Shown in pieces: positions 6,922 to 50,712 of a DNA stretch of 64,000 nucleotides. Origin of the DNA: Chloranthus sessilifolius (Eukaryota; Streptophyta; Magnoliopsida; Chloranthales; Chloranthaceae). Below the pieces are notes generated by a model, which searched no databases, had not been told where the DNA came from, and saw nothing but the letters and a program-made list of their open reading frames with translations. The position numbers were made by a program, and so were the translations under genes. Within the stretch, counting starts at the first letter, position 1. The number at the start of each line of letters is the position of its first letter. Location of the stretch: positions 15,575,501 through 15,639,500 of the forward strand of contig CM037596.1 of the NCBI GenBank assembly GCA_021018995.1, written 5' to 3'.

Positions 6922-7357
6922 TCGATTAATCGATTTCCAAAATCGATTAATCGAAAGTCAATATCGATTAATCGATTCTCAAATTGATTAATCGAGATTC
7001 CCATTCGATTAATCGAAACCCAATTCGATTAATCGAATTTCTCTGCTCCATCAAGTCGATTCTCAATTCGAGTAATCGAGTTTCCAAAATTGATTAATCG
7101 ATCCCAAATCGATTAATCAAATTTACAAATCGATTAATCGAATTTTCATTTCGATTAGTCGATTTCATCAAACTCATTTCTTTTCTTCACTGGAGTCCAC
7201 TGTAGGCTCCCAGTCGATTAATCGATTCTCAAATCGATTAATCAAGATCCAAGGTCGATTAATCAAAACTCAATTCGATTAATCGAAATCTTGGTCCTCT
7301 GACTTTTCAACTTCCTGGCCAATTTCGATTAATCGAAACCCAATTTCGATTAATCGA
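6922..7357. repeat. Array of TCGATTAATCGA palindromes, period 20-21
   Basis: Roughly 16 copies of the 12-base palindrome TCGATTAATCGA, some with one change, are separated by 8-9 base spacers. The first starts are 6922, 6943, 6964, 6984, 7005 and 7025. Two spacer-like interruptions (near 7040-7060 and 7165-7210) break the array into blocks. It lies inside the solo LTR. Confidence 0.85.
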
Positions 7358-7644
7358 AATTGCCAGATTTTTCCCCCCTTTGGCTGTTCTTCCACATATT
7401 TTTCCTTACTTCTTCCTCCATTTTTCTAAGCTTTCTACACTACATTTTACACCATTCTAACTACGATTAACCTCTTATATCTTATGCATTTAATTCACAA
7501 GAAATTTACCTCAATCAAATCTCAATTTGATTATATCTTGTGGTTGGAAAAAGCTAGGGTTCCAGCTTTGGCTCTAACGGATCCAAACCGTGTCGAATCC
7601 GGCTTTTATCGCTTGAATCCCCCTTCCAATCTTTCTCTCCTTAC

Positions 7645-7946: not shown

Positions 7947-9289
7947 TTTCCAAAAATGACTTCAAACGTTGTCCATTCACTCAAAATTTATTCCCATTGT
8001 GCAGATTGATGATTTCAACAACTCCATTTGAAAATACTTGGTGAACCAGGAAAGGACTTGTCCACCGAGATTTTAGCTTTCCAGGGAAAAGGTGCAGTTT
8101 GGAGCTATACAGGAGGACTTTTTGACCTGGCGTGAAAGACTTCCTCAAAATTTTAAGGTCATGATCCCTTTTCAACTGATTTTTATACAATTTTGCACAA
8201 TCGTATGCGTCAGCCCTTAACTCTTCAAGTTCATCTAGCTGCAACTTCCTGTGGTCAACAGCTTTTGGTAGGTCAAAATTTAACTTTTTAATAGCCCAAT
8301 AGGCCCGATGTTCAAGTTCGACTAGGAGATGACAGGCCTTTTCGTAAACCATCCGATATGAGGACATTCCAATTAGAGTTTTGAATATTGTACGATAGTC
8401 CCACAGTGCGTCATTCAGCTTTATCGACCAATCTTTTCTGTTTGGGTTAATAGTTTTCTCCAGTATCCTTTTTAGCTCCCGATTGGATACGTCCACCTGA
8501 CCACTGGTTTGGGGATGATATGGGGTGGCCACTTTGTGTGTGATACTGCATTTTTTCATGAGCTGCTCGAACACTTTATTACAAAAGTGTTTTCCTCTAT
8601 CGCTAATGATAGCGCGTGGAACATCGAATCTTGAAAATACTTGTGGCCACCGTACAGCTTGCAAGCCATGGCCTCAACCCATTTTGAAACATAGTTCACT
8701 GCAATGAGAATATACATATTCCCAAAAGAATTTGAAAATGAGCCCATGAAGTCTATCCCCCAAACATCAAACAATTCGACTTCGAGAATAGGGTTTAAGG
8801 GCATCATGTTTCATTTGGAAATTTTTCCCAACATTTGGCAGTTGTTGCATGAAGTGCAATGCTGGTGGCAGTCTTTAAAGATCGTTGGATAATAATACCC
8901 ACTCTAAAGAATTTTTGTTGCAATCTTCCTGAAGCTGAAATGTCCTCCACAAGACAGTTCATGACAAAATGAAATTATATCCGACTGTTTGGATTCTGGA
9001 ATGCATCTCCTTTTGATTTGGTCAGGAAAATATTTAAACAAATACGGGTCCTCAAAAAAATAATGTTTCACCCGTGCTAGGAAAACAGATTTCTCATTCT
9101 TGTTCCAATGTTGTGGCACTTGATCAGTCACCAAATAGTTGACCAAATCTGCATTCCACGGTGCGCGATCAATGGCAAACAACTGCTCATCAGGAAAGTT
9201 TTTCAAAATCTGAACCAGATCATCAAATTTGTCAACGATAATTCGTGAGAGGTGGTCAGCCGCCACATCCTTAGATCCCTTTTTGTCCT
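7947..9289 (-). pseudogene. Athila integrase, decayed
   Basis: On the minus strand, ADHLSRI and a PWNADLVNYLVTDQ-like linker (about 9266-9100) come first. An HHCC zinc-finger zone follows (CHELSCGGHFS; then CTSCNNCQ near 8860). The DDE core has DVWGIDFMG with the first aspartate (about 8775), [12 protein letters not shown] with the second (about 8620) and [10 protein letters not shown] with the glutamate (about 8465). The C-terminal part, with [13 protein letters not shown], runs to about 8050, and a GNKF-VNGQRLK tail reaches the solo LTR with a stop in it. At least two frameshifts, near 8660-8560 and 8810-8900, break the frame. The enzyme would have joined element cDNA into host DNA. Confidence 0.85.
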
Positions 9290-10600
9290 AGATTTCCAAG
9301 TCAAATTATTGGAACAGTAAAATTCACCTGATTAATATGGCTTTTGCATCTTTCTTCACAAAGAGGTAGCGAAGAGCCACATGATCTGTAAACACAACTA
9401 CCTTTGACCCCAAAAGGTAGTATTGAAATTTTTCCAGTGCAAAGACCATTGACAGGAGTTCATTTTCTGTGGTGGAGTAATTAAGTTGTGCATCATTCAA
9501 AGTACGACTAGTATGATAAATGACGCGCGACATTTTCTCCACCCTTTGTCCTAAAACAGCTCATATCGCGTAATCAGATGCATCGTACATGATTTTAAAT
9601 GGAATGGTCCAATCTAGAGATTGGATTATTGGAGCTTGGACGAGCTCAGCTTTGATTATCTCAAAAGCTTTCAAACATTTCTCATCGAAAAAGAATGGAA
9701 CGTCTTTGCCAAGTAGGTTACACAGGGGCTTCACAATCTTACTAAAGTCCTTGATAAATTGTCTGTAAAAATTGGCGTGCCCCGGAAAAGATCTTATCTC
9801 TTTGACAGTTCTTGGCGGTGGAAGACTTGCAATCAAATCCACTTTTGATTTGTCCACCTCGATGCTTTTGGATGATATGATGCGTCCAAAAACTATGCCA
9901 CTCTGTACCATAAAGTGGCATTTTTCCCAGTTCAAAACTAGATTCTTTTCCTGACATCTTGCAATAACCAGAGATAGATGATATAGACAACCACTAAAAC
10001 TATCTCCAAAAATTAAGAAGTCATCCATGAATACCTCTAAAAATATTTCCACCATATCAGAGAATATGCTCAATATACATCTTTGGAATATAGTTGGAGC
10101 ATTGCAGAGGCCGAAAGGCATCTTGCGGTAGGAGAAAGTTCCAAAGGGACAAGTGAATGCCATCTTTTCTTAGTCTTCAGGCGCAATGACTATTTGATTG
10201 TATCTGAAATAGCCATCCAGGAAATAGTAATATTCATGCCCGACTAATCTTTCGAGCATTTGATCAATAAAGGGGAGAGGAAAATGATCTTTCCTTATCA
10301 TTCCATTCAATTTTCTATAGTCAATGCACACCCTCCAACCAATTTACACTTTTGTTGGCACTAACTCATTTTCTTCATTCTTCATCACCGTGACTCCAGA
10401 CTTTTTGGGGACCGCTTGCGTACGACTAACCCATTTGCTATCAGAGAAGAGGTATATGATTCTGGCATCTACCAACTTAATAACCTCATTTCTGATCACA
10501 TCTTGCATAATTGGGTTCAATCTGCAATATGGTTCTCTAGACGGTTTCACATCTTCTTCTAGATGAATACGGTGCATGCACACCGTTGGGCTGATACCTT
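9290..10600 (-). pseudogene. Athila reverse transcriptase and RNase H, decayed
   Basis: On the minus strand the RT starts with VKPSREPYCRLNP (about 10550) and continues WVSRTQAVPKKSG. After a frame break near 10340-10170 come TCPFGTFSYRKMPFGLCNAP (about 10150) and the catalytic box FMDDFLIFG (about 10030). The connection has PGHANFYRQFIKDFSKI. RNase H follows: IMYDASDYAI (about 9580), LNYSTTENELLSMVFALEKF and VVVFTDHVALRYL (about 9390). The central RT block of about 200 residues is still open, but the domain as a whole is interrupted. Confidence 0.85.
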
Positions 10601-10640
10601 TTATGTCCTTTATAGACTACCCAATTGCACTTTTGTGATC

Positions 10641-10901
10641 TTAGAGCACTGCAATCAGCCGCCCCTCGTGGTTCTCATTCAATTTGGATGAAATTATTAC
10701 CGGATAAGTTTCGCCTTCTCCCAGGTAGGCATATTTCAGATCTACAGGAAGAGGTTTCAACTCCAACTTCGATTTCTCTTCTTCTTTTGGCATTTCTTTC
10801 CTTACTTCTTCTTTGGCTGCAACTTTCAATTGCCATCCATCTTCTCCCAAGAGTGGTGTGGAGTTCAACATATCATTCACTTCCTGGATCAAATGATCCA
10901 C
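10641..10901 (-). pseudogene. Athila linker between protease and RT
   Basis: An open minus-strand stretch has a lysine/glutamate-rich segment followed by LKPLPVDLKYAYLGEGETYP. The last part matches the conserved Athila-type sequence that precedes RT (LKPLP..L.YA.LG). It lies in order between the protease (to 10936) and RT (from about 10600). Confidence 0.65.
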
Positions 10902-10935
10902 ATCAAAGTCCTCATTGAAATGGACTAATATTTCA

Positions 10936-11563
10936 TCAAATGATCAAATGATCCATATCAATTGCCTCTAGAGGGTCCTTATATTCATAAGTAAAAAATA
11001 TATTTTCCACAACATTATCAATCATGCAGACTTGTGCATGTTCTTCATCCTCAGCTGGGTGTTTTACAATGTGGAAAATGTTCAACTCCACAGTCATATT
11101 GCCAAATGATAACTTCATTATCCCGTTCCGACAATTGATTAATGCATTCAATGTTACTAGGAATTGTCTTCCTAGGATCACCGGAACATTATTCTTCAGA
11201 TTGGGGACAGGTTCGGTGTCGAAGATAGTGAAATCAACTGAAAAGTAGAAAGAGTCCACCTTGATGAGGACATCTTCCACTATTCTCCTGGGTATTTTAA
11301 TTGACCTATCAGCTAGCTGAAGTCGTTGTAGGTTGTAGTTCACCCAACTCAAGATCCTTGTAGACAGAGTATGGCAATAGGTTGACACTTGCCCCAAGAT
11401 CCAGCAATGCTTGATCAATACTATTGTCGCCAATGACGATTGAAATAGTCGAACAGCCAGGGTCCTTATACTTAATTGGGAGTCTAGCTTGAAGTACTGA
11501 ACTAACCTGCTCAGCTAGAAAAGCTTTCTTCGGGACGTTAGTCTTCCTTTTGATTGTGACCAA
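10936..11563 (-). pseudogene. Athila retropepsin-like protease, decayed
   Basis: On the minus strand, ALLDLGASVNLLPYSVYKDL (about 11400-11340) carries the active-site triad in the clade's usual D-x-G form (DLGAS). After a one-base frame change near 11320, RSIKIPRRIVEDVLIKVDSF and VPVILGRQFLVTLNALI complete the retropepsin fold. The frame change and a preceding stop disrupt the gene. Confidence 0.8.
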
Positions 11564-11589
11564 GTCCTTTAAGAATTTTACATAAGCCG

Positions 11590-12460
11590 GTACTTGCTAG
11601 ATGGCATCGAGGAATGGGATGTTAATCTTCAATTATTTAAAAACCTTGATGATTTCATTCAAATTCTGATTTTTCTTGGGTGCCATCAACCTTTGAGGAT
11701 ATGGGGCTTTAGGTATGAAACTTTTTTCTTCCATAATTTTTTCTTCATCATTTTTCTTTTCTTCTGTCTCTTCTTCAACTTCTTCATTCTTCTCCGTTTG
11801 AATTTTTGATTTCGATCTCTCGTCCTCTTCTGGCATTCTCACGTTGTTTTCGATCTGCCGGCCATATCTCAACGTCGCGATTGCCATTAGTTGCTGATGA
11901 TTCTCACCTTGTGATTGATTCGTGCTACATTCAATAACCATTTGCCCTCTTGGATTTGGGACCGGTTGGCTTGGGAATGTTCTCTTTTCTTTTTCACTGA
12001 GTTGTGCTGCCACTTGACCCATTTTTTTCCAATTTGGATACATAGCTGGCTAGTGGTTGGATGACTCTCATAAGGAAATCCTCCATCTAAGGATATTGGT
12101 TCTGGGGTGGACGTTGTGCATTGTTTCCCTATTAATTGTTAAATCCAGGTGGTGGAAACATTTGCGTAAAGTTCAGCTGACCCACGAGTTGCTGTGTGGG
12201 TTGGCTTTGATACCCCACTATTGGCTGTGGAAATTGAAATTTTTGGGCCAACTACCTGAATTGCCCACTTTGATTCTGATTTTGGTGGAATTGATTCATG
12301 CCACCAAAATTTTGCTATTGAAAATTTTCTTGACCGAACTGTTGTTGTGGTCCTTGGCTGAAATTTTGTTGGGGATAGAAGTTCACCCCTTGCCCTCTAG
12401 CTTGAGGTTTTTGATTTTCTTGCCTCCACGAAAAATTTTGATGGTACTTCCAACTGTTTG
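11590..12460 (-). pseudogene. Athila gag C-terminal part, 5'-truncated
   Basis: On the minus strand a glutamine/asparagine-rich NFYPQQNFSQGPQQQFGQ stretch (about 12390-12330) precedes VAAQLSEKEKRTFPSQPVPN and a Glu/Lys-rich tail. It ends with APYPQRLMAPKKNQNLNEI (about 11700), the usual order of Athila gag near its protease. The N-terminal capsid part is missing because the element breaks at about 12460. The reading frame at 12315-12515 fuses a few codons of the neighbouring LTR fragment to gag by chance. Confidence 0.8.
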
Positions 12461-13250: not shown

Positions 13251-13650
13251 GATGGGTACCCACCCCTCGAAGCATGAACAGTAGATTACCTTTAGGGTTG
13301 AATAGATCGACGATGCGATGGCCTTCACATGATTTCTCCTTCTTCCTCCATGATCTTGATGGTGGAAATAGATCACAATGATTCTTGTGGAAAAACACAC
13401 GGGAGTTTTTAGGGAAGATAATAGGGAGTTTTGGGAAGAGATGCGTTGAGAAGAGAAGTTGTGACAGCTAGGGTTTCTTAAGAGATTATAATGAGAAAAA
13501 AAGAAAAGATATACGTATATAAATAGAGTTTTCTAAAATAGGGTAGGTGTGGAGTGCTAACACCGTGCGTAGTGCAAAATACATCTAACACCATTAAAAA
13601 GGTTTAAGAAAATCCGGGTCATTACTATTTTCAAGGCGTGTTTAGAGGTA

Positions 13651-13744
<94 letters not shown>

Positions 13745-13789
13745 CTTATTAAATGACCCTAACTTAAAATAGCGATCTTAGGCTCGTTA
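13251..13789 (-). repeat. Fragment of LTR family B (start region)
   Basis: Read on minus it begins TGTAACGAGCCTAAGATCGC at about 13788. It includes the family mark AATGGTGTTAGATG then GCACGGTGTTAGCACTCCAC (about 13595-13545), and ends at a GGTGGGTACCCAT motif (about 13253). The same marks occur at 48388-48858 (minus), 37990-38283 (minus) and 56362-56960 (plus). A long TA/T microsatellite expanded inside it. Confidence 0.65.
13652..13744. repeat. (TA)n followed by poly-T
   Basis: About 28 TA units run directly into a T run of about 37 bases. The homologous site in the other copy (near 48785-48815) has only short AT repeats, so the expansion is specific to this copy. Confidence 0.9.
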
Positions 13790-14995
13790 CAGTTGCAAAT
13801 GACCTGTCAATTTTGATCTACTTGACGAGACTTATCCAATGAAACTATTTTTGAAATTTTTTGAGATTGTTGATGTGCTAAAAAAATGGCAGTGAAAGAT
13901 TCAATGGCAATTAAAGTAATAAATAATATTAAAATATTATTGGTTGGGTTACTCGATCAGTCGGGTACATTTTGCTATTTAGTTTTTCTCTTTTTTTGTT
14001 GCATTTTTCTTTAAAATATATTTTCTTTAATTTGTTAGTTGTATATTCATATTATAAATAGTAGAATGAAATATATAGATGTTTGTAATCTAAAAGCAAT
14101 GAGTATTGTTTTATTTGTCAAAAAAAAAAATTATAGCAATTTTGTTTTTAAAAGATTAATATGAAAGAGGGTTCCTATTTTAGGAACTCACCTTGGGCCT
14201 CCAAAATCACAGGGCCAGCCTTGTTGAAGAGGTGGATGGAATGAGCAACTGCGCACAATTGGGGGGGCTGAGGTTACGAGGAGTCTTTGGCATAACATTA
14301 ACCAACCATCTTTGGATGAAATGCACTCGGCTTCGGCAAACTTAGGGAAGTCGAGAGTGTAGACTGTGTTACTGATTGGTCCTAAGAATTGTCTGACTGA
14401 GCTCCTCTTTTTCCAAGTGATCATGTTGGATATTTAAAAAAATAAATATCTATTATTAATTTTAAATTAATAATATATATATATATATATATTTACTTTA
14501 GTTAAAAGTTTTTGGCTTAACTTTACATGGTTCCTTCATTTAATGGTTCCATGTGGAGAAACTACTTTCACACTGACGAGTAGACACTAGTGACATTTGA
14601 CTTTCGTCTGTAAGAACAAGTGTTGCGAGAAGTACGAGTCTTGTTTTGTTATAAGTTGATTCCGTGTAATGAGATACATGATTCAATCAAGTGATGGTTT
14701 TTCTTCGCCTTCTTTCAGAGACAGATTTGACAAAGCAAACTTTAGTGCATGGGTTTCAACCCTTGACCCTTTCAGGATTAATGTCTTAACCAAGAGAAAG
14801 TGAACACAAGGTCCATTTATGTCTTTTCTCCTCTTTTAGAGTTTGATTTGACAAAGCATAGTTATGAGCATGGATATCGCCCTTTCACCCTTTCGGGATT
14901 AGTGGCTTCGACAAAGAGAAAGAGAGTCTAGTGGCCACCACTCTTCGGCAAAGAAGGATTGCCGAAGAGATCCTAGGGGCCACCACTTTTTGGGA
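13790..14995. repeat. Dispersed segment, copy 1, left part
   Basis: The segment matches 48859-49993 closely, and copy 1 resumes at 23661 after the MULE insertion. It contains an F-box-like remnant on minus (14188-14424) and a duplicated pair of blocks with TTTGACAAAGCA near 14727 and 14851. The last 60 bases before the MULE (about 14935-14990) have no counterpart in copy 2. Confidence 0.75.
14188..14424 (-). pseudogene. Possible F-box/DUF295-type (KIB-like) beta-propeller remnant, copy 1
   Basis: The minus frame encodes about 78 residues with NTVYTLDFPKFAEAECISSK followed by DGWLMLCQ. DUF295/KIB-type plant F-box proteins have a similar pattern: a yxLxLPxl strand, a small cysteine-containing strand, then a GWL strand. 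No F-box domain or full propeller is seen. The paralogue at 49294-49509 keeps most residues, so the stretch was inherited with the segment. The family assignment is tentative. Confidence 0.35.
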
Positions 14996-15004
14996 TTTAT
15001 TGAA
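14996..15004. repeat. Left target-site duplication of the MULE
   Basis: TTTATTGAA, repeated exactly at 23661-23669. Nine bases is the standard duplication length for Mutator superfamily transposons. The paralogous uninterrupted segment has it once (49994-50002). Confidence 0.9.
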
Positions 15005-15133
15005 GGGAAATTTACCTGACCGACCCTATCAAATACACCTTTTATGTCAGAGGCCCTATAGTTTCACCTTTACCCAAATCGACCCGCTGCACACCAAGCC
15101 GTCTCCTGCCTTTAGGAAATGTTGAAACTACCC
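15005..15133 (+). repeat. Left terminal inverted repeat
   Basis: The first about 80 bases pair with the right end at roughly 90 percent identity (GTCAGAGGCCCTATAGTTTC is shared exactly). A weaker match continues to an AACTACCCCC motif at about 15125-15134, which has AATTACCCCC as its counterpart. Terminal repeats are where a MULE transposase binds. Confidence 0.9.
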
Positions 15134-15279
15134 CCAATGTAATAAATAGCTGCCCTTTTTTCAACTCTTCACTGTTTACCTTTTTTTACTTTTTACTTTT
15201 TCATTCGAAGTTAGTGGAGAGGCGGTGTCGATTCGTTGTCGCGAGCATTCCTTTCTTCAATCTTCACGCTACTAAATCT

Positions 15280-15622
15280 GTAAGTTATAAATAAAATTAT
15301 CTTCCATTGCTATAGAGTTTTATCTTCTTCTTTCGTCAGTGTACATTTTGTCATAATATTTTAAGGTTACTCTATATACAATCGATATCGATTGTATTTA
15401 TAGTCGTTATCGATTACATATAGCGTCGATATCGATTACATATAAAATTGATATTGATTGCATATAGAGTCGATATCGATTGTATTTATAGTCGATAGCG
15501 ACTATATATGCAATCGTTATCGACTGTATATGAATTCGATATCGATTTTATATATTACAGTTCAATTAACATTTAAACAAGCTTTGTTAGTATGAGACTC
15601 AGTCCTTTCTCTTTTATTACAG
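15280..15622 (+). other. Predicted 5'-leader intron of the Ulp1-type gene
   Basis: A donor-like CTGTAAGTT (GT at 15280) and an acceptor TTTATTACAG (ending 15622) precede the ATG at 15645. The interval holds an 8-unit palindrome array. It is inferred from splice motifs only. Confidence 0.45.
15380..15555. repeat. 22-bp palindromic array 1 (8 units)
   Basis: Exactly 8 x 22 = 176 bases without an indel. The first unit is AATCGATATCGATT plus GTATTTAT. Cores are RTCGWTAWCGAY-type palindromes and spacers are AT-rich (for example ACATATAG). It lies in the predicted leader intron of the Ulp1-type gene. Confidence 0.92.
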
Positions 15623-16433
15623 TTCATTTCAACAAGTTGTCAAGATGGTTGTACACCGACCTATTGCCAAGTGTTCCCCCAGTGCCATTTCGAATCTCTA
15701 CGATACCGCTAACCCAACTCGAAAGGAGTTGCTGAGAGCTTTAGTTTTCGATGGAATATTTCAAATGCCTAAGGGTGTAGGATTTCTTAGAGATGTGGTC
15801 GATGCAATGTTGACTGTTTGGGTTGAAAAAAATTACTTCCGAATCGGGAAGACTGATGTCTATCTTCGGAAGTTGGACTGCATTGATACTAGGGCTTGCC
15901 GTAGTTGGCCCCAAAAAGTATACCCTGTCTATTAAACCACCAAAAGAACAATCCATTCGATACAAATATTTTCGTGGAACGCCTCATGCAAAAATTTTCC
16001 GGCCTCATATAGATAATGCAATTTGGAGAGCGGAAAGTAATGACGACTTCGTAAAGTTGTCCCTTCTATATGTGTTGTGTATATTTTTTTTTCTCGGGTC
16101 TCACCATCAACTAGCGAAAGACCACATCAACATCATCGATGACATTGAGAACTTTAACCGAACTCCATGGGGTCTTCACTTGTACCATGACTTGAAGGAG
16201 TATATAATGAAGGGAGCGACGAATAAAAAGACTGTCGAAATGGATAAAGCCCTTAAGACATACAACACATATGGATGCATATGTGTACTCCAATGGCGGG
16301 CTTATGAGATGCTGTCAGATATCTCGCCTTCCCAGACCTGCCTTAAGGACCCTTTCCCATGATGGTAAAATGGTCGGACAAGGCGCAATCAAGGATCAAA
16401 GGTTACACTCGTGGACAGATGTTGAACAATAAG

Positions 16434-16751
16434 GTATGATGTCTATTAAATAATTCAAATTTATAAAATTAAGGAATAGAGAGATCCGATGCCGATTGAA
16501 AAAAAAAACGTCTAATTCATTACAGAATTGATATCGACTTATTAAATACTCGATAACGATTCATTACAGAATCGTTATCGACTATTTAATAAGTCGATCA
16601 CGATTCATTACCGAATCGATAACGACTATTATATAAGTCGATAACGATTTATTACAGAATCGATAACGACTTATTAAATAGTCGATACTTTGCATTTGGA
16701 ATATATTATCAATTTAGTCTATTATTTACCATGTTTCCTTTTCTTCAAAAG
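16434..16751 (+). other. Predicted intron with palindrome array
   Basis: Donor AATAAG|GTATG and acceptor CTTCAAAAG, 318 bases. The array at 16526-16688 fills half of it. Confidence 0.6.
16526..16688. repeat. 22-bp palindromic array 2 (about 7.4 units)
   Basis: Units start at 16526, 16548, 16570 and so on to 16680 with no change of register. Spacers here alternate between TATTAAAT-like and CATTACAG-like forms, giving a 44-base higher-order alternation. Confidence 0.92.
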
Positions 16752-17335
16752 GTTCGCGCTCCCCTCGAGCCTGTTGGCTTTGAATTAGAGATACCCGTCT
16801 TAAAAGAATATCTATGGGGTCGAAAGGTCATTGGAGGGAAGACGAAAGAGGTTCAAGAATCGGTCAAAAAAGTTGTGAAAGAGTTGCGATCGAATAAAAA
16901 GAGAATTTACATTCCGATCGAGAATATTCATGAGGAAGAATTTGACGTCCAATCAACGTCGGACGAAAAATCTTCCTCGAAAGAGGGCCCCGTCCATGTA
17001 GATGTAGAGCATCCGAGAATTAGGGGGCCACCAAGGAGAGCCCAGCCACGAAAGGGAGTCCAGCTGCACCGACCTCCTCCAATGAGCCGTTGTTGAGGAG
17101 GATCGACGGTTTGGTGCTGGAGAACTTGAAGCTCACTCAAAGAGTGAGCCATTTAGAGGAAGAGAATGTGATCCTCGCGATACGTTGTGCCTCCATAGAG
17201 AAATTATGCAACTCCTTGAATGAGTGGCTCCATGCAAGGGATGCGGAGTGGCAGAAGATGATTTACTACAACATATTGGTCAGGAAGGGCCAGGGAAATT
17301 TAATACTTAAAAATTTATTGAAGGCGAGACCTAAG

Positions 17336-17726
17336 GTATGTGTTAGTACGTAGTTTTTATATGTTCAGAATTGTTAACATAAATCGACTCTATATATAAT
17401 CGATATCGATTGTAAATATAGTCGTTATCGATTGTGTATAGAATCAATAACGATTGTAAATATAATCGTTATCGACTGTGCATAGAGTCGATATCGATTG
17501 AAAATATAATCGTTATCGACTTTGTATTCAATCATTATCGATTGTATATAAAGTCGATAACGATTATATTTACAATCGATATCGACTGTACATAGAGTCG
17601 ATTTTGTATACAATCGTTATCGATTGTATATAGAATCGATAACGATTATATTTACAATCGATATCGACTTTTTAAAATGGGGACGAGAAATTATTTCTTA
17701 TACTGCACCATTATTTTGATGTTTAG
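17336..17726 (+). other. Predicted intron with palindrome array
   Basis: Donor CTAAG|GTATG, acceptor GATGTTTAG, 391 bases. About three quarters of it is array 3. Confidence 0.6.
17382..17669. repeat. 22-bp palindromic array 3 (about 13 units)
   Basis: Unit starts at 17398, 17420, 17442, 17464, 17486, 17508, 17530, 17552, 17574 and 17596 are in strict register. One unit has lost 6 bases (17596-17611), after which the 22-base register resumes (17612, 17634, 17656). A 16-base partial unit precedes it. Confidence 0.92.
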
Positions 17727-18341
17727 GATGTCGCTCTATCGAACCTGATGTCGAAGGTGTGTGGCACAGCCTTCGATAAGGAACCATCAGCTCTAATGCA
17801 TGAGGATCCTCCCACGGATGAGGTGACGGCAACTGCTGACGAGCAGCCTGAGTCTTAAGCCGATAAGGGTCCAACTGGTGAAGAGCAAACCTCTTCCCAA
17901 TTGTCTCATCAATAAATTAACTCTCGCTTAAGACCTAGGCAAGGGAAAAGCATGAAATCAACTATCGTCAAACCTAGGACACAGCGAAGGGGAGTGATGG
18001 TGAAAAAGCTTGTAACGGAGAAGGCCATTGAAGGACCTACAACTATGCCTGGACCTGTGGCTGATGCTACTACTGAGCCTAGACCTACGGCTGATGATGC
18101 TACTGCTGAGCTGACAGCAAAGCAGAAATACAAGCTGAACCTATGGAACAAGCCCGAGGCTGAAGATGAGTAAGTTATTCTTCCCATGAACAAGCCTGAA
18201 TCTTTCATTTTATTATTTTTTATAAAAATTAGTTACGTTGGCCTTTATTTATGCAGTAACTACGTTAGCATCATCGGTGATTATACGCTGGTGATGCAAT
18301 CATTCAGATGTATGGCGGGCACGCGGTACTTGGATAATATT

Positions 18342-18730
18342 GTAAGTAAAGTAATTATACTGTAGGCACAAAATAGACAATATAAAGATGTTGACGACTC
18401 GAAATAGAGTCATCATTGACTCTACAACGAATCGATATCGATTCATTATAAAGTCGATGATGATTATTTATATAGTTGATAACGACTGTAATTAGAATCG
18501 TTATCGATTCTCTATACAGTCGATATCAACTCTACAACAAATCGATATCGATTCATTGTAGAGTCGATACCGATTATTTATATAGTCGGTAATGACTGTA
18601 TGTAGAATCGATATCGATTCATTGTAGAGTCGATACCGACTTTATTTCTAGTCGTCCACTTTATACATTGAAGGACAAGAGACGACTCTTTTTAATATTA
18701 CTTATTTAACTGTAATTGCATTGGTTTCAG
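18342..18730 (+). other. Predicted intron with palindrome array
   Basis: Donor AATATT|GTAAGT, acceptor TTGGTTTCAG, 389 bases. About two thirds of it is array 4. Three short introns of the same gene (18170-18256, 19016-19081, 19223-19296) have no array. Confidence 0.6.
18408..18655. repeat. 22-bp palindromic array 4 (about 11 units)
   Basis: Units start at 18408, 18430, 18452 and so on to 18650 without drift. Cores vary (CGATGATGA, CGATACCGA, CGGTAATGA), but the 22-base spacing does not. Two four-unit blocks within it look like a duplication (18430 and 18540 both begin AATCGATATCGATTCATT). Confidence 0.92.
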
Positions 18731-19703
18731 ATTATGGGCGCCTACTTGAGACACTTGGAAGTAATTGATGACAACATTCATCTTGATTGAAAAGATAAAT
18801 GCTTCCTTATGTGCCCTACTGCTCTGACCTACATGGACTTTGAATTGAACGATTTCAACAAGTTCCTTCTCATTGAAAAATTGTACGAAAAATCATTCGA
18901 GATTCAAGTCGAACGGTGGGCTGCTCATAAACTCGAGGAGAACCAAGGCCAGAAGTTGCTGCAACATTTCTTCTTCAATCAGTTTTGAAATCTGTGGGCT
19001 CACGAATGCAGCACAGTATGCTTCCAACATCTTTATAATTTTTTCTATCATACTCTTTGAGATTATATTACTTTTTTATAGATATTTATCCCAATTCATT
19101 AACAACAACCATTACACTGAGCGCTTGTGATCGTGAAGATAGTCGAACAATCGATATTGGTCGTGGACCCTATTTTTAATAGGCCCTCTAAGGAAAGATA
19201 TTTGAACTAATTGTAAACACTGGTAAGATATTTTGCTTAGCATATCTTTCATCATTGTTAGCTTAGCATATCTGACATTCTTCTATTTTGAAACAGTCCT
19301 AATACCTTTTCGTTGTTTTCTATTCATACGGTGACTCCACTACACTGAACGTGAAGACATATCCTTTGTCATCTAGTAACTACCGGTACAAAGGCCTTCC
19401 CCGACAAACCAATTTGAGTGATTGTGGGGTATTTGTGCTAAAGTATGTGGAGTACTTCATGTCGAGAAAGAAATTTGACTTCGCGCAATCAGATATGGAT
19501 AAGATCATGACAGAAATTAACCATATACTGGCTAAATACACCGGCGGTGAAGGAGGAGAATTGGAGCAGGACGACTCAAAGGAGGAGGCGCAGAAGTAGC
19601 AATGGTTACATTGTAAATGAAATATTTTGTAAATATAAATGAAATATTTTTAAGTAGCAGTAATTATATTGCAGAAGTAGCAGTTTTTATTGATTTTATA
19701 TAG

Positions 19704-19960
19704 AGTCGCCATCGACTATATAAATAGTCGATAGCGACTCTATATAAAGTCGCTATCGACTTTATATAGAGTCGCTATCGATTATATAAATAGTTGATAG
19801 CGACTCTATAATGAATCGATATTAACTCTATAGACCGTCAATGGCGACTCTATATAAAGTCGCCATCAACTATTTATATAGTCTATGGCGACTTTAGACA
19901 TAATCGTCATCGACTGTCATCGTCATCAACTGTCTGGCCAATCGTCAACCACTCTATATA
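19704..19960. repeat. 22-bp palindromic array 5 (about 11 units), between the two genes
   Basis: It lies between the stop of the Ulp1-type gene (19599) and the stop of MURA (20129). Cores here are mainly GTCGCYATCGAC and GTCGATAGCGAC, a different sub-family with more G+C than the other arrays. Register is 22 from 19704 to 19902, then slips by a few bases in the last two units. Confidence 0.88.
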
Positions 19961-20128
19961 GAGTTTGTGAATGGCGCATCTATACATTCCATGATCTATG
20001 TTTTTAGGCAAGTGTATATTTTAAAATTACAACTATTACGAAACAAATTATCGAGATTCTAAGCTTCTGAGCAAATATACACAATGTCTCGTTTACATTC
20101 CATCTATCACTATTAAAAATATGCACTA

Positions 20129-22885
20129 TCAACCCATCGGTTCCATTACCGTGCAACTCCTGCGATTGTGACCATACTTACTGCACCTGCCACACTGTAG
20201 AGCCCTAACCTCACCCTTAGACCGTATTCTTCTCTTCCTCGAACAGTCGGCTTGCTTTCGATAATAATAGGGTGGTCTTACTTTCATATTTTCACGGAGT
20301 TGCTCTGCTTGAAACTCTCATTGGCTTTTATCGAGGGTGAGAAGCCATTGTTCGTCGTATGTATGTCTAAAGCAAGCGATAAAAAACTACTTCTCACAGA
20401 AGTTATGGTAATCGTAACTTCACTGATTGATGGCCGCTACGGCATGGGAGCAAGGCAAGCCATGAATGTGCCAACGGCGGTAAGTACACGTCTTGTGTTC
20501 CAAGTCGACGTGATGAATGAAATTTTCAGAGTTGACTTGGAATTGATCGCGCCCATATGGTTGAGCACTCTTTCTACCAGCCCATTGCAACACCTTCTTC
20601 ATGTGCTCATCTGCTTTTAGGCAGAGGAGGGTGGTCCATTTCTCAGATATCTGTCGGTGCTTTTGAAAATGATCGGCAACTTTCTCTCTATTAGTTCTGA
20701 TTAAGATGATAATTGGTCTCTCTCAAGCTATCTTTAGTATGCTGTTCAAGCGTTCGATATTATTCGTAGTCAGGGAATCGTACTGCCTTCCTTTCATATA
20801 TGCGCGTACCCAATGCTTCGGGTCTATTTTCAAAATATACTCTACGGCCCGAAGATCAGCAGGATCTTTCTTCATTTTATTCATAAAATAATCAAATCTC
20901 TCTACTGAATATGCACGCGCAGCGCTCCACCATAGATGATTCACATTGTTCCTGGGATACTTGTATGCCAAATTTTATGTCATATGTCACATGCAGTAGT
21001 TGTGGTATGCGTTAGGAAAGATATACATTTGTCATCGCCTTTATTAAACCCTTCGACCTATCCGTGATAAAAATAAAATATTCGATAAACCCACCGATCA
21101 CGAACGCACTTACCCGTTCAAAAAACTTCATCCACGATTCCTCTTCTTCTAACTCGACGACGGCAAATACTAACGGTAATATATGGCCATGACCGTCTTC
21201 CGTTGAGGTGATAAGTAGGATCCCTTCTAAACGTCCTGGTAGGTGTGTGCTATCTACAAGTAATATGCAACGAAGTGTATTACGGTAGCTTTCGATGTAG
21301 GGGCCAAAACTCTAAAAATCTTTAAAACTTATAGTCAAGCGTAAGTTGAAAGGATGTTTGTACATTAGGATCTATCATCTCCATCTCCTTCACGTAGGCC
21401 GGTAGATTCACAAATTATCTTTCTCAACTGCCTCTAATATCATTAAGGGTAAGTTCTTTCTCCCTCCAAGCCTTTGCATATGAGATTTACATATTATAAG
21501 TTTTTGTAATATCAAATATTATCGACACCGGTGTGTAGTCGAATCCTTTCATAAGTTTCTCCCGTACATAGTTGGCTATGAAGGAGATTGTTGCATTACA
21601 ATGACCGTGCGGTCCGATCTTAGCGGCCTCGCATGTGTGAGTACTATTGAATGTCTTGATTTGAAAAGAGTCAAACTCAGTCAATTTAGACGCATGTATT
21701 TACCACGAACAATCGGGTTCGTAGCATCCGGCTATTACTCGATAACTAATGGTTTTCAACGGCCGAATTTAAAAAAATTTCTCCACCTCGTTCTCTTTCA
21801 ATGCTCTTTGAAATATTTATTTGTCTCTGAAAATCTCTCCAACTTTAAACGTTTAATTCTGATATTCAGTTTCCACCTCTTCATCAGAGGAGTCGCCCGA
21901 TATCTCTGACACTTCGTAAGCTCCGTCTACTAGGGGATTATCAATGTCTCTCACAAAAATTTTTGGATCATCTTTTATAAATCTATCCGGTTCGCTTTCA
22001 TAATCTTCTTCTAAGGTATTTTCGTTAGTAGGTTGAGGATGACTACGTCATTCACTAGCGGTGTTATCAGGTGGTTGACTAGATCTTTCACCGAAGGGGT
22101 TCTGATGTGATTGATTAGATCTTTCACCGCAAGAGTTCTGGCGTGGTTGACTAGGCCCTTCACCGAAGGGGTGCTCATGTGTATGGGCATGGGGTTGAGC
22201 TTCTTCGGTAATCCCCATCGATGGCATGGTAGAACATAAGTCGCAAGTCAACTAAATTGTCCATCCACCGGGGAAGATATGACTAAAATCGACGATATTC
22301 ACCATCCTTTCTAAAGTGTAGTCTAACCATTGACTACATTGTTGTGACCCATGCATATATTTTAGTGGGTCATCATACAATTTCAACCGAAGTATCATTT
22401 AAATCAAAAATTGCTTTTCTGACAGTCATGTTCACCGTAGTATCGTTGTCATCACCTAACGGGACGGTATTGTATATAGCTTCATCCTCCTCAAACTTAC
22501 ATGACTGAAATGAATGGTTACTCACAAAATCAGTCCCGCCAAAATTTACTTGTTCAGTTTCGACTCAAAAGGATAACGGTTTCTTAATGATGAATACCTT
22601 TATGACGTCCACCCCGAATCTATAAAACGTAAATAGGGTGGCTAAATCATCAGAGTCTAAAATGTCGACAACCACATGGGTATTCACTATCTTCATACTA
22701 AACTTTATGAAAACTATTTTATCTGCCATCGCAAAACTGACAGCAGACATTTGTCTTATGAATTATTCATAAGAAATATCAGTCGAAATGTTAATAACCC
22801 TCCGCTGACTACCTTCATATAAGCCATCATCGTTTACAAGAAGGTCATCATAGTAACAGAGAAGAGGAATCTCCACCTCCGTCAT
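20129..22885 (-). pseudogene. MURA-type transposase of the MULE, decayed
   Basis: The probable start at 22885 begins with methionine and a VEIPLLCYYDDLL stretch, then LYEGSQRRVINIS, as in MULE transposases. A MuDR N-terminal domain follows, with FQIKTFNSTHTC (about 21660) and YTPVSIIFDI (about 21540). The DDE core is open from about 21320 to 21005: ILLVDSTHLPGR with the first Asp (about 21255) and ITDRSKGLIKAM with the second (about 21064). Next come WVRAYMKGRQYDSLTTNN-IE (about 20805-20750), a SWIM finger with TCTYRRWHIHGLPCSH (about 20490-20440) and a terminal CCHC knuckle CGRCSKYGHNRRSC (about 20195-20150). The 2757-base span suits the family, but many stops and frame changes disable it. 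It would cut and paste the element. Confidence 0.85.
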
Positions 22886-22921
22886 CGCTTGTTTAAGAAT
22901 GAGAAGGAATGGGTCATAAGA

Positions 22922-23320
22922 CTGATGACACAAAAAAGAAAAGACGATTATTAATACATATCGACTCTATATACAGTCGATATCGATTGTATAAACAGTC
23001 GATATCGATTGTAAATATATTCGTTATCGACTGTGTATAGAATCGATAACAATTGTATTCACAGTCGATATCGACTGTATATACAATCGATATCAACTAT
23101 TTATACAATCGATATCGACTGTATATAGAGTCGATAACGAATATATTTACAATCAATATAAACTTTTCAAAAAAATTATCAAGGAAATAAAGTCTTTCTT
23201 ATACTGCACGATTAAAAGATCCTAACAAACTGAAAATGAAGACCAATAAACCTAAATTATTTCTTATACTGCACTATTAAGAGACCCTAATAAACTGAAA
23301 ATAGGGTTTAAGTAGGATAC
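22922..23320 (-). other. Predicted 5'-leader intron of MURA with palindrome array
   Basis: On minus, donor CGCGAG|GTATCC (GT at 23320-23319) and acceptor GTGTCATCAG (ending 22922) frame 399 bases upstream of the MURA start. Half of it is array 6. It is inferred from splice motifs. Confidence 0.5.
22959..23160. repeat. 22-bp palindromic array 6 (about 9 units)
   Basis: Starts at 22975, 22997, 23019, 23041, 23063, 23085, 23107, 23129 and 23151 are all 22 apart. Cores are mostly GTCGATATCGAY, and spacers include TGTATATACA and TGTAAATATA. A near copy of a TTCTTATACTGCAC tail found after array 3 follows this array at about 23197-23210 and again near 23255. Confidence 0.92.
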
Positions 23321-23534
23321 CTCGCGTCGCAACGACAAACTGTAGGGTCTTCTTGTCACAATAGATAAATGCGCTTCTTCTCCCAAGCCTCTGTTTTCTT
23401 CTTCGAAATAGCAGATCGGAGCAGATCAGACTAAGGAAGAAGACGTCGTCACCTGACCCACCTCTAAATTTTTAGCAGATTAAAATAAGGAAGAAGATGA
23501 TGCTTTGTGGGTTAAAGAAAGTCATAGAAGGGGG

Positions 23535-23660
23535 TAATTTGAACTTTTTACTCTCCTTAGGGTCGGCTAGGTTTGGAGTTGGTCGGTTTGGGTAAAGGTG
23601 AAACTATAGGGCCTCTGACGTAAAAAGTGTATCTGACAGAGTCGATCAGGTAAATTTCCC
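23535..23660 (-). repeat. Right terminal inverted repeat
   Basis: Its reverse complement starts GGGAAATTTACCTGATCGAC and matches the left end. Confidence 0.9.
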
Positions 23661-23669
23661 TTTATTGAA
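23661..23669. repeat. Right target-site duplication of the MULE
   Basis: TTTATTGAA, identical to 14996-15004. Confidence 0.9.
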
Positions 23670-24209
23670 TGTATTGAGTGTAGTGGTCTAAGACCCTTGT
23701 CTCTCTTGGGATGCTTATGTCAGATAACTCATTTAAGAAAAACACCTAATGTCAGATATTTCAGTTAAGAAAAACACCTTTGTATGATTCTTTATGATTG
23801 TAAACTGCCCATGTTCCCATGATCTTGCCAGTTATTGAAACTGCTAAGTTACCTCGAGTGGACATAAATCACCAGGTACAATCATTGTGAATGGACTTGG
23901 AGCCATTGCAATCAGACACCACTAGACTTGGAGCCATTGCAATGAGACACCACTAATGGGCTTGGGGTTACTGTGAAAGGCTACAGCGAGTGAATTGGGG
24001 GGTACTGCAATCAGACACTGGAAGTTGGGTTGGAGTCATTGCAAATGGGTACAGTGAGTGTACTTGGGGTCACTGGGAATACAAACTGTCAGTGGCTTGG
24101 AGGTTACTGCGAACTTCAGAAATTTGAAATTTCAGGCGCCAACATTGATTTGATAAATTCCATTAATTTATATACTTGAAATGGAGATTAACTCAGACTG
24201 CATGAGTGC

Positions 24210-24219
24210 TTATAAATAG
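24210..24219 (+). promoter_or_regulatory. TATA-like box conserved in both segment copies
   Basis: TTATAAATAG followed by AGATGCAATAGATGCTTACA is retained identically at 50703-50712. A core promoter in the duplicated segment is plausible, possibly that of an unclassified LTR. Confidence 0.4.
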
Positions 24220-24879
24220 AGATGCAATAGATGCTTACATAAACCGTAAAAAGAGTTAGTTTGCAATGAGTGTCTACCCATCATGGGTGATAAAGAAGTC
24301 CACATGCTTGTGTGACTTTGTGACTTGCACGAACTTTCATGTATTCAAAGTCCTTGCACATCATAAAGTCACATATTGTACGCTAACCTTCTTCAAAAAA
24401 TAAATGTGTGGATTGTCGTGTCCACCCATCATCCATCATGGGTGGATACCCATGGTAGACTATCAAAAAACCTAATATGATGGATGTGCAAAGAAATTGC
24501 GAGCATTTTTCTTACACAAAAGATCATCGCTTTTTGGTTTTATCTTGTTTTGTATTTTATGTATATTCTAGTGTTTGTGCAAATGTACATAAGAGCATCT
24601 CAAAAATATAATCAAATTTGAATAGCTAAAGTATTTTGATCCCACTCTCTATTTTAGCTACTGCCTTTTTAAAAAAGCTTCCAGCAAGGATATCTATTTT
24701 AGCTACTCCTTTTTTAAAATAAAATATTTTTTTCTATTTTAATATATTCTTAAAATAAATGTCGAGTGGAGAGAGAGAGAGATTTAATAGTTTTTTATTA
24801 ATAGCGATTGGAGGAGGACTCACCAAATATGGCGAGTAGGGTAGGAGTCGCCAAATATGATTTCTAGCGACTCTGCTGG

Positions 24880-27174: not shown

Positions 27175-27754
27175 ATGTGGTTTCGTATTTGTCCGAAGAA
27201 GGAACAGAGTAGGGGTGTGGAAGAGGAACAAACAACATTCATATCTTGTTCTGAGTTTTTTCGAGAGGTGTTTCTGATCTCGATCTTTTCTGTTGTTGAT
27301 AAAACTTTTCTATTGAGAAGCTTGATCTTTTCTGATAAACCTTTTCTCTTGAAAAGAAATGCGATGAAGTTGACAGTGTTGCGACAAGAGAAATGGACGG
27401 AGCGTAATTGCCGGCCGCCCGATCGCCGAAGAAATGCGATGAAGTTGACAGTGTTGCGACAAGAGAAATGGACGGAGCGTCATTGCCGGCCGCCCGATCG
27501 CCGAAGAAATGCGATGAAGTTGACAGTGTTGCGACAAGAGAAATGGACGGAGCATCATTGCCAGCCGCCCGATCGCCGTATCTTACGATCCTGTCGGGCT
27601 TTTGCCAAATTGGGTGGCAAATGGAGGGGAATTTCCATATCAACTTGCTAATTTGAGTTTGGGTGATACCAAATTTTAAGTTTTTGCGGCAGTTAGTAAC
27701 CTCTTTATTAGTATCTTGCGATGATACAAATTCCATTGTGTTTGATAACTGCAA
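27175..27754. other. Open block with 75-bp tandem repeats, possible short gene of unknown function
   Basis: A plus frame of 158 codons (27175-27651) and a minus frame of 171 codons (27239-27754) are both open across three 75-base repeats. The length is a multiple of three, so each frame repeats 25 residues (plus: NAMKLTVLRQEKWTE; minus: SISLVATLSTSSHFF). Local G+C is far higher than nearby. No known domain is recognised in either frame. Because the repeat lacks stops in four frames, open length alone is weak evidence for coding. Confidence 0.3.
27356..27580. repeat. 3 x 75-bp minisatellite
   Basis: Three head-to-tail copies start at 27356, 27431 and 27506, nearly identical (for example GCGTAATTGCC, GCGTCATTGCC and GCATCATTGCC). 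They are rich in GATCG, CCGGCCG and other CpG words. High identity suggests recent expansion. Confidence 0.95.
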
Positions 27755-30235: not shown

Positions 30236-30526
30236 CTTGATATTTCATCATATTTTACGTGTCTTGATTGTGTATTATATAAATCATGTAAAGTGCATAT
30301 AAGTAAGATCATAATACGTAAGCATTTAAGTATATTTAGTCATGGTACATAAACATTGAAGTGTACACAATCATGGTGCAGAAATAATAATACATAAACA
30401 TTAAAATGTACACAATCATGGTGCATAAATATTGAAGTGCATATAATATGATCATGGTATATAAACATTGACATTTAATCGCACTGTTAAGAGAAGAACG
30501 GAATATAGAACTTAACTGCCCATACC

Positions 30527-30775
30527 CAATCTATTGATTTCCCATAATCAATCTATTGATTTCATGTTCAAACTCAATCTATTGATTTCTCATAATCAAT
30601 CTATTGAGTTCGTGTTCAGATTCAATCTATTGAGTTCGTCTTCAGACTCAATATATTGAGTTCTGTCTATGAGTATTTAAAGCATTCATTTGTTCATACT
30701 CAATCGATTGATAATCGATTGACTCAAATCCATGCTCAGACTCAATCTATTAATTTCAGCTCAATCTATTGATTT
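30527..30775. repeat. TCAATCTATTGA array, left half
   Basis: About ten copies of TCAATCTATTGATT or TCAATCTATTGAGTT, usually 22-26 bases apart. The near-palindrome has a central mismatch (ATCTAT where a perfect form would have ATCGAT). True TCAATCGATTGA copies occur once or twice (near 30700). The array continues after the inserted LTR at 34722. Confidence 0.85.
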
Positions 30776-32019
30776 TATTTTGTAACATCCTGAAAAATTT
30801 TGACCTTTGAATAGTATGTCTTGGTGTGCGTGCCCGACTGGTCACATACTCAATCCTGTGAAAATAATTGATAAGTCATATTAGGTCATATGTTAAGTAA
30901 AAATCAACAGGAGTATAGTTATGCGTGAACCTTTGAATGAGTTTCGATACACCTAGTTGCGGTGTATGTGCTTAACACCAAAATCAAATACTTAATATAA
31001 GTTTATGAAGCCTAAGAGAATTTATTTCTCTTATGATTTTTGGGTTCTAGAGAGGGAATAAAAGTTTATTAATGGTTAAACAACTTATTTGACTAATTAG
31101 GCCAACTGTATTTGACTGACTAGTTGGGCCAACTGATTGAGCCGATTATTCGAGCTGACTATAGGTCCTGATTGGGTGCATGTCTGTTAAAAAGCACGTC
31201 ACCGTTTGAATTTTTTAAACGAAATCGTTTTGAGTCTATTTGAGCTCGTGTGAGATTTTTAGGACCAAGTTCATACACCGAGGTTGTGTGTATTGGCTCA
31301 ATACCGAGTCCGATTGATAAGTAGTTAGGGTGTACAGGCGCCACACCGAACCAAAAGATTAATTCTATAATAGCTAGCACCTCCCATAGGTGTATTTATT
31401 TCACGTAGAGTCTAGTTTCTTGGATATGGCTAACACCCAAAATGGGTGTATGAGTTTTATTGGGGAACCAGTCTCTTTAGTTATAAAAAGAAACGAAGCT
31501 TCTTTTGGAAGCTAATTGTTGGGGCGTGGGGTTTCTAGAGAGAGAAAGAGAGAAGATAGAGGAGATCGCTCACGTAGACGTCTGAAGCTCGGATCGACTT
31601 CGTTGAACTACAAGGTATTGGCCTCGTGTTAGTTTGTGTGCCGCGGGAAGTCGTTAGATTCCGACTTCAGTGAGATTTGAGAGATTTTGAATGTGTGGAT
31701 GTACCAATTGCTGTGATCATGGCATACGCGATTGGGAGAGTGAAGAGCAGTGCATGTTGGAGCCGAGCACCATCATAGGCTTCGTTTCGATTCAAACGTC
31801 GGAGAAATCAACGAAATTCACTCCGAAACCCTCGCTTGGGCGTGAGCTCGTAGATCGACAAATCGATCAATTTGAGGTATGAAAATTATGCAAAATCATG
31901 ATTTATAGTTGAGTTAATTTGATTTATATTTATGGGTAAAAAATTAGAAGAAAAAGAAGTTAAGATTTAAGAAAAATGGGTTTTGAAACATAAACCCTTA
32001 AGAATGGTGAAATCTGTCA

Positions 32020-32170
32020 ATTTCGATCGATCAAAATTGGATTCGATCGTTCGATTTTGACAAGAGATGATGAAATTCGATTTGTCTGAAAATTAGATCG
32101 ATCGAAATGAAATTCGACCGATCAAAATGAAATTCGATCGATCGAAATTAAATTCGATCGATCGAACTTG
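32020..32170. repeat. TTCGATCGATCGAA palindrome cluster in LTR A
   Basis: About seven copies of ATTCGATCGATCGAAAT or close variants with AT-rich spacers lie 18-22 bases apart in the last half (for example near 32110, 32131 and 32153). The cluster ends just before the TTAAGGCGTTAGAAAG block. Confidence 0.8.
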
Positions 32171-34200: not shown

Positions 34201-34721
34201 AATATGCAAATATTTTGATCTTGTCTTTGAATTTATGCATGTGATGAGATATATATTGGTATTAATTTTTTCCACTGAGCTTAGATGTTAGCTAACCCCG
34301 ACTATACGTCACAGGTGTAGGTTTGAGGAAGGCCAAACTACGTACTTGAGGAAAATGAGCTTCTGCTTAAGGATTTGTACTCTATTCTTGAATTGTAGAT
34401 TTAGTGCATCGTGGACTTTGGTAAGTTCGAACTTAGTATGTTTGTACTATTATACATGCATGGTACACTACTGTTGGTGATGGTTGGTCATCACTGGTGT
34501 TGTTTTGTTCTGTACATATTAGGTATTAGAACTGAAGATTTTTATTCATGACATATATAACTTTACTTTAATTTTCGTATATATATGGATGTGCCAAGTA
34601 TTCTGTATCAGATTGTGATCTACGATCCAACGATCCGGGTTTTCCCATTGAGTATAAGTTAAAAATATATATATGTCTCAAAATTTTTAGGTTAGAAAAT
34701 TCGGGCTGTCACATATTTTCA

Positions 34722-50702: not shown

Positions 50703-50712
50703 CTTATAAATA
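50703..50712 (+). promoter_or_regulatory. TATA-like box, segment copy 2
   Basis: Same TTATAAATAG with identical downstream bases as at 24210-24219. Confidence 0.4.

Follow-up and report, generated by a model that had tools for sequence, protein, structure and literature searches.

This analysis concerns a Mutator-like element (MULE) of 8656 bp, located at positions 15005-23660 of a 64,000-nucleotide stretch of the Chloranthus sessilifolius genome (assembly GCA_021018995.1, contig CM037596.1, positions 15,575,501 to 15,639,500 of the forward strand; hereafter the window). The element houses six arrays of a palindromic 22-bp repeat. We consider it fairly probable that these arrays are cis-acting targets of an anti-silencing protein that the element encodes and that is similar to the VANC proteins with DUF1985, which bind short motifs in the VANDAL MULEs of Arabidopsis, methylation being stripped element-wide (PMC5735166, PMC10398659). 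The arrays are real and well above chance; their symmetry, density and location, the type of element that carries them, its gene content and the copying of array blocks are established here. The points in favour of this reading are the VANC21-like placement of the arrays, the gene content, the tandem repeats in coding sequence, the mirror symmetry of the unit and the excess of CpG within the arrays. The initial annotation of this DNA had proposed several roles for the arrays and named neither VANC nor a DUF1985/Ulp1 gene, yet these provide what we regard as the best explanation.

In the proposed mechanism, the binder would be the product of the plus-strand gene of the element, which has a DUF1985-like and an Ulp1 part and would thus resemble the VANC/KIU genes of VANDAL MULEs. 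This protein would bind, probably as a dimer, to alternating 11-bp half-sites of the form A-T-A-N-A-R-T-C-G-W-T, and the dense sites in both predicted 5′-untranslated region (5′-UTR) introns, in the long introns and in the intergenic gap would recruit enough of it to strip host DNA methylation from the whole element. Following the loss of methylation, both genes would be expressed and the element would be able to move. Duplication, both in tandem and of blocks, would enlarge and spread the arrays. Motif and protein would co-evolve, confining the effect to the element's own family.

Architecture and placement of the arrays

Arrays were detected by Tandem Repeats Finder (TRF) plus tiling of units, and introns were called from GT...AG splice sites in the sequence only; all introns mentioned are predicted. 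Array 1 (15376-15551, 8 units of 22 bp) lies in the 5′-UTR intron 15280-15622 of the plus-strand gene. Array 2 (16522-16675, 7 units), array 3 (17394-17673, 12 units with one 38-bp interval) and array 4 (18404-18645, 11 units in two 110-bp blocks) occupy introns 16434-16751, 17336-17726 and 18342-18730 of the same gene, respectively. Array 5 (19700-19957, 11 units with one 38-bp interval) is found between the two convergent genes, and array 6 (22949-23146, 9 units) in the 5′-UTR intron 23320-22922 of the minus-strand gene. The 58 tiled units agree with the six arrays of about 60 units that the initial annotation had reported, and the 22-base register with few indels also holds: 50 of the 52 within-array intervals measure 22 bp and two measure 38 bp, array 1 being exactly 8 x 22, as claimed, and starting at 15376. 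An excess at period 22 is present in all six arrays, with a lag-22 self-match of 0.60-0.75 per array; 200 dinucleotide shuffles of each array give 0.27-0.30 (z 8.6 to 13.5). Seven coding stretches reach a top self-match of 0.30-0.36 over lags 3 to 119; in one of them (20132-20722) the best lag is 22 by chance, at only 0.31.

The repeat is largely confined to the arrays. All 31 exact copies of the core TCGWTAWCGA in the 64 kb fall within arrays; when up to one mismatch is allowed, 52 copies are found in the window, 46 in arrays, 2 elsewhere in the element and 4 outside it. Specifically, the half-site word ARTCGWT is present 79 times in 1368 bp of arrays (57.8 per kb), 2 times in 2624 bp of plus-strand exons (0.76 per kb), not once in the 2761 bp of the minus-strand coding region and 77 times in the 55345 bp outside the element (1.39 per kb). 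The three short introns (87, 68 and 77 bp, the ends of the two shortest being uncertain by 1-2 bases) hold no unit, in keeping with the earlier statement that short introns and exons are free of arrays. The assignment of the arrays to long introns, to the leaders of both genes and to the gap between them is right as regards placement, but the "leaders" are probably the two 5′-UTR introns given above. In other words, tandem motif arrays occupy introns and other non-coding DNA and exons are avoided, which is a VANC-type placement: the VANC21 motifs of VANDAL21 form tandem repeats in the introns, the intergenic stretches and the non-coding ends of the element, for the most part away from coding sequence (PMC5735166). 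Patterns of the arrays and of the terminal inverted repeats (TIRs) had no exact match (0 each) in a collection of viral contigs that is unlikely to hold plants.

Placement also bears on the earlier suggestion that the arrays bind a dimeric protein such as the transposase. Two-fold sites for a dimer fit best, as far as the first part of this suggestion is concerned; that the binder is the MULE transposase, or some accessory protein of transposition, is improbable, even though there are precedents. Mosquito MULEs carry 9-15 bp subterminal tandem repeats (PMC5225508), CACTA elements have subterminal arrays of a 12-bp motif (PMC8978399), and hypomethylation of their own elements has been reported for Spm TnpA and maize MURA (PMC10398659). 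However, the transposase is less supported as the binder because the repeats of the mosquito MULE Muta1 lie within its TIRs (PMC5225508), whereas the arrays described here are internal, in introns and between genes. They start 371 bp from the left end of the element and finish about 514 bp short of the right end, being at least 371 bp from either, and a single half-site occurs in the 208 bp of both TIRs.

The unit itself differs from the 12-bp palindromic core with a free 10-bp spacer that had been described, a division that proved wrong: all 22 bp of the consensus ATANARTCGWTAWCGAYTNTAT are palindromic, and a second two-fold axis lies at the unit junction. Each array is a series of 11-bp half-sites that read ATANARTCGWT and change orientation from one to the next, the six arrays holding 116 in total. 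Position 7 is T in 116/116 and position 5 is A in 114/116; C at position 8 and G at position 9 are each kept in 105/116, and position 6 is A or G in 112/116. Position 4 is near random, with 35 C, 29 T, 34 G and 18 A, and in array 5 position 10 is C in 8 of the 22 half-sites. The pattern recurs from array to array, position 7 being fixed in six of six and position 5 in four of six, with three or four different bases at position 4 in every one. This half-site profile provides an exact, testable binding model, in which positions 5, 7, 8, 9 and 11 are constrained, position 4 is free, and positions 6 and 10 are R and W, respectively. The notion that the cores face the same side of the DNA does not hold, as 22 bp at 10.5 bp per turn amount to 2.1 turns, that is, a drift of about 34 degrees per unit.

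Conservation is mirror-symmetric. The information contents of the left and right halves correlate with a pooled r of 0.984, a value reached in 0/20000 position permutations. The symmetry is maintained without the two CpG positions per half (r 0.986), in a pure-phase framing without a position weight matrix (56 units, r 0.974), and when left and right halves are taken from different arrays (r 0.92), and frame offsets except 0 and 11 give an r of at most 0.47.

CpG dinucleotides reach 3.24 times their expected number in the arrays, compared with 0.89 times in the element outside them and 0.75 times in the remainder of the window. Half-site CpGs are intact in 96 of 116 cases, and 16 of the 20 lost ones read TG or CA, the products expected when a methylated C deaminates, which suggests that this copy was probably once methylated and that its CpGs are now decaying. 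With a CpG in each half-site and axes every 11 bp, methylation and protein might even compete at the same places. A possibility, though a rather unlikely one, is thus a methylation-coupled code, in which an element-encoded dimer would read the CpG-bearing 11-bp half-sites and compete with host CG methylation for the same base pairs, making a two-state switch; arrays in other repeats of the window could then mean a widespread convergent transposon device in this plant. Because the half-site contains a CpG, direct tests could show whether binding and methylation compete.

The host element and its genes

The element is delimited by a left TIR at 15005-15101 (plus strand) and a right TIR at 23564-23660 (minus strand), which are 86% identical over a match of 107 bp with the adjoining bases of the target-site duplication (TSD) counted in. 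The 9-bp TSD, TTTATTGAA, is perfect at both ends (14996-15004 and 23661-23669), and a single TTTATTGAA marks an empty target site at 49994-50002, where the junction aligns with a paralogous copy of the flanks; element, TSD copies and empty site are features without strand. Flank paralogy within the window links 13266-14885 to 48392-49960 (83%), 23746-23905 to 50054-50213 (90%) and 23909-24572 to 50374-51070 (80%). At the empty-site junction a 19-base match runs unbroken across, the alignment being gappy further left. Since the insertion is absent from the paralogous flank copy and TTTATTGAA is single there, the arrays arrived with the insertion. The duplicated segment itself is present in two copies about 35 kb apart and 80-90% alike, one with the MULE and the other with the empty site.

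The transposase domain PF10551, the TIRs and the 9-bp TSD identify the element as a MULE. Its transposase gene (20132-22892, minus strand) is broken and encodes a DDE domain, a SWIM zinc finger and, by eye, a CCHC-like knuckle; Pfam matches are PF10551 (E 1.2e-10, 42.1 bits versus a cut-off of 27.6) and, for the SWIM finger, PF04434 (E 5e-6, above cut-off). The N-terminal part of this gene includes a 36-bp tandem repeat (22071-22181, 3.1 copies) that encodes a repeated peptide. The plus-strand gene (15646-19599), likewise broken, lies convergent to it and comprises a DUF1985-like N-terminal part, a coiled-coil-like stretch, tandem peptide repeats and an Ulp1 C48 protease C-terminal part. The Ulp1 domain is well recognized (PF02902, E 3.6e-10, 40.5 bits versus a cut-off of 20.7), with a SENP5 chain as its top solved-structure match (E 7.9e-6), and places the element among the ULP-containing MULEs (KI-MULE/KIU type). 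The coiled-coil stretch between the DUF1985-like and Ulp1 parts is bZIP-like, with an E of 0.007, below cut-off. TRF reveals two short tandem repeats in the predicted coding sequence of this gene (17027-17064 and 18047-18105); variable regions of VANC proteins often contain tandem peptide motifs (PMC5735166). Stops and frame changes interrupt both genes and, with its CpGs decaying as well, this copy looks dead.

Weighing the anti-silencing reading

A number of results weigh against a VANC-like function of the arrays, and they are considered here together with the alternatives on which they bear. As for the plus-strand gene, its DUF1985 match is weak (PF09331, E 0.011, 16.2 bits versus a Pfam cut-off of 35.1) and weakens to an E of 0.027 in a longer joined piece. 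In a large protein database that may not hold plants, none of 5081 candidate homologues of this gene reached E <=0.001, and 902 candidates for part of the transposase included no homologue; kinship to VANC therefore rests on domain content. A search of solved structures with the joined N-terminal part returned nothing credible (best E 0.16), and an AlphaFold2 model of the DUF1985-like open reading frame alone is unusable (mean predicted local distance difference test score, pLDDT, 39.9).

A second group of results concerns the history of the arrays, which seem to have grown block-wise from a common pool. The two best of 132 flank comparisons are a common 26-bp right flank of arrays 3 and 6, located in introns of different genes (score 37 versus a shuffle maximum of 28, n=300), and a common left flank of arrays 4 and 5 (score 30); moreover, the two 110-bp blocks of array 4 are 81% alike. 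Units of arrays 1, 3 and 6 diverge by 0.24-0.26 within arrays and 0.25-0.26 between them, while the six arrays taken together give 0.293 within and 0.327 between. The initial annotation took the retained register to imply constraint or a copying mechanism. Block copying is indeed seen in the flank of arrays 3 and 6 and in the blocks of array 4, but the exact register needs no special mechanism because tandem duplication preserves phase.

Block copies between arrays, as well as two intervals of 38 bp beside 50 of 22, also fit a neutral, satellite-like expansion, an unlikely alternative, whereby a palindromic 22-mer of single origin expanded through slippage or unequal exchange and was block-copied into tolerant non-coding gaps, coding insertions being lost. 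Intron tolerance would explain the location without function. The unevenness of conservation is in part compatible with it: independent-column neutral drift yields such unevenness (p 0.079 for the spread of conservation and p 0.0135 for its maximum), and a neutral model with a shared coalescent tree reaches the observed spread in 8/300 and 31/300 simulations. Accordingly, unevenness as sole proof of selection was rejected, given that these two models allow it. On the other hand, star-like neutral models reach the observed unevenness in 0/300 for each of two settings, and the shared-tree model predicts a linkage between columns of 0.158-0.868 (200 simulations), more than the observed 0.127, which itself exceeds column shuffles (0.093, z 6.8). 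Furthermore, neutrality has to account for position 7 being invariant and position 4 variable in every array. Symmetry is another difficulty, since models without exchange between the halves do not attain it: r 0.97 is reached in 0/20000 runs of the independent-column model and r 0.95 in 0/1200 runs of other models. Hypermutable CpGs bring a neutral model closer, as a star model with CpG positions 3x as mutable gives a mean r of 0.72 and a maximum of 0.95, but the observed symmetry persists without those positions. A neutral model with exchange between inverted half-units could be the source of the symmetry, and in single arrays the symmetry is weaker (r 0.57-0.90). Judged from one copy, constraint on array positions is likely.

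For the hairpin-forming RNA that had also been put forward, the outcome is mixed. An RNA or double-stranded RNA function, in which long hairpins of the intronic arrays would influence splicing, or else feed or evade small-RNA pathways, appears quite improbable, in spite of several signals in its favour. The RNA of intron 1 folds with a z of -9.7 versus 100 dinucleotide shuffles and, on the plus strand, four of the six arrays (2, 3, 5 and 6) fold better than column-shuffled controls (z -3.9, -2.7, -3.7 and -4.1; 150 shuffles each). Pairing is in excess at 2 of 11 cross-junction positions (33 vs 26.3, p 0.008; 48 vs 44.3, p 0.002) and nominally at pair 2/21 inside units (34 vs 28.5, p 0.045), the sole one of 11 pairs. 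By contrast, arrays 1 and 4 fold no better than column shuffles (z 0.1 and -1.6), and the other ten within-unit pairs are without significant excess: at the variable pairs 4/19, 6/17 and 10/13, Watson-Crick pairs number 19, 26 and 22 versus 15.0, 27.1 and 29.1 expected, the last being a deficit (p 0.008). In addition, array 5 lies outside any predicted intron, Rfam gives no match on 14900-23800, and inverted block copying could be the source of both the junction pairing excess and the extra folding. Whole-array mirror structure, over arms of 66-99 bp, clearly exceeds column shuffles only in array 4 (3/200 reach it); it is marginal in arrays 2, 5 and 6 (14, 19 and 18 of 200) and absent in arrays 1 and 3 (165 and 68 of 200). 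These folding and mirror-structure tests cover gap-free runs of at least 5 units, i.e. 9 of 12 units in array 3, 10 of 11 in array 5 and all units of the other four. As variable within-unit positions show no pairing excess, the two halves seem to be recognized independently, each by one subunit of a dimer, and mirror-symmetric conservation without clear within-unit covariation speaks more for a dimeric protein that binds DNA than for hairpins. The same lack of clear covariation weakens the idea that each palindrome is selected as a hairpin, with junction pairing and RNA folding counting otherwise.

The comparison with known systems cuts both ways for a VANC-like protein. VANC21/VANDAL21 and VANC6/VANDAL6 (Hosaka 2017, PMC5735166; Sasaki 2023, PMC10398659) share with this element a MULE transposase plus a second gene with DUF1985 (a weak match here), dense tandem repeats of short motifs in introns and non-coding DNA, repeat turnover and tandem peptide repeats in the protein. 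However, the VANC21 and VANC6 motifs are 8-9 bp long, by eye non-palindromic and devoid of CpG, those of VANC21 being in one orientation, whereas the unit here is a 22-bp palindrome whose alternating half-sites each contain a CpG. The known VANC words (YAGTATTAY; AGTTGTCC/AGTTGTAC), compared by eye with the consensus, are not the array word. VANDALs have no TIRs or short degenerate ones, some related Brassicaceae elements having TIRs (PMC6446971), while the long TIRs of this element set it apart from VANDALs proper. The Ulp1 domain of its second gene is a difference from the VANC21 and VANC6 systems. According to a 2026 review, VANC genes that bear Ulp1 (KIU) have the same kind of action on the elements they belong to (PMC13317346), and an unpublished crystal structure of VANC21 is mentioned in a meeting report (PMC8756742).

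In KAONASHI/ULP-containing MULEs (KI-MULE) of melon, rice and grapevine, too, the Ulp1 gene runs opposite to the transposase; unlike here, the accessible parts of the sources describe no palindromic intron arrays for these elements (PMC2528002, PMC13317346). Melon and grapevine have MULEs that combine TIRs with ULP genes, which in grapevine lie in both orientations (PMC2528002). Short-motif arrays and an element-encoded protein, with demethylation by TnpA reported, are found in Spm/En and CACTA elements, which belong to another superfamily and whose arrays are subterminal, not intronic (PMC10398659, PMC8978399). Finally, the mosquito MULE Muta1 has repeats of 9-15 bp and an imperfectly palindromic terminal motif, but its repeats are part of the TIRs and a second gene is unmentioned in the accessible text (PMC5225508). 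A literature search covering titles and the beginnings of abstracts found no description of a palindromic 22-bp unit, which is not proof of its absence from print. By this comparison, the fit to VANC is close in gene content and placement, and the palindromic, CpG-bearing 22-bp unit and the long TIRs differ. New here are this palindromic unit, the CpG in each half-site and a TIR-MULE as the host element. If the VANC-like reading is true, anti-silencing of the VANC type, documented in Arabidopsis with short asymmetric motifs, would span a wider range of elements and could use a two-fold symmetric, CpG-bearing word.

Other repeats of the window

Palindromic arrays are also present outside the MULE. 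At 2635-2830, six palindromes of the type TCAATCGATTGA, of which five are exact, form three pairs, with a spacing of 22 bp within pairs and 53-54 bp between them. The array at 6917-7365, consisting of 17 near-palindromes TCGATTAATCGA (10 exact) with 13 of 16 spacings of 19-22 bp and variable spacers, adjoins a Gypsy-like pol (7984-12049, minus strand), and CpG-type transitions make up 5 of its 7 core changes. Near-palindromes of the TCAATCTATTGA/TCAATCGATTGA type occur at 30519-30790 (10 sites) and 34716-35275 (17 sites), apparently as one array split by an insertion, which by eye starts with TGTAACA and ends with TGTCACA; within this insertion, at 32000-32180, lie six TTCGATCGATCGAA-like palindromes (2 exact), with 4 of 5 spacings of 20 bp.

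The cores of these arrays measure 12-14 bp, and 36 of 51 spacings fall between 19 and 26 bp. With four such arrays outside the MULE, arrays of this kind are not restricted to elements that carry a DUF1985-like/Ulp1 gene, a further point to be set against a VANC-like function. They could also suggest that the arrays are bound by a DNA-binding or chromatin protein of the host and act as enhancer, insulator or intron enhancer, with other repeats of the window using related words; we deem this very improbable, as the words of the arrays differ from one another.

Lastly, three 75-bp tandem copies are found at 27354-27578, the second 99% and the third 96% identical to the first, with several frames open on both strands.

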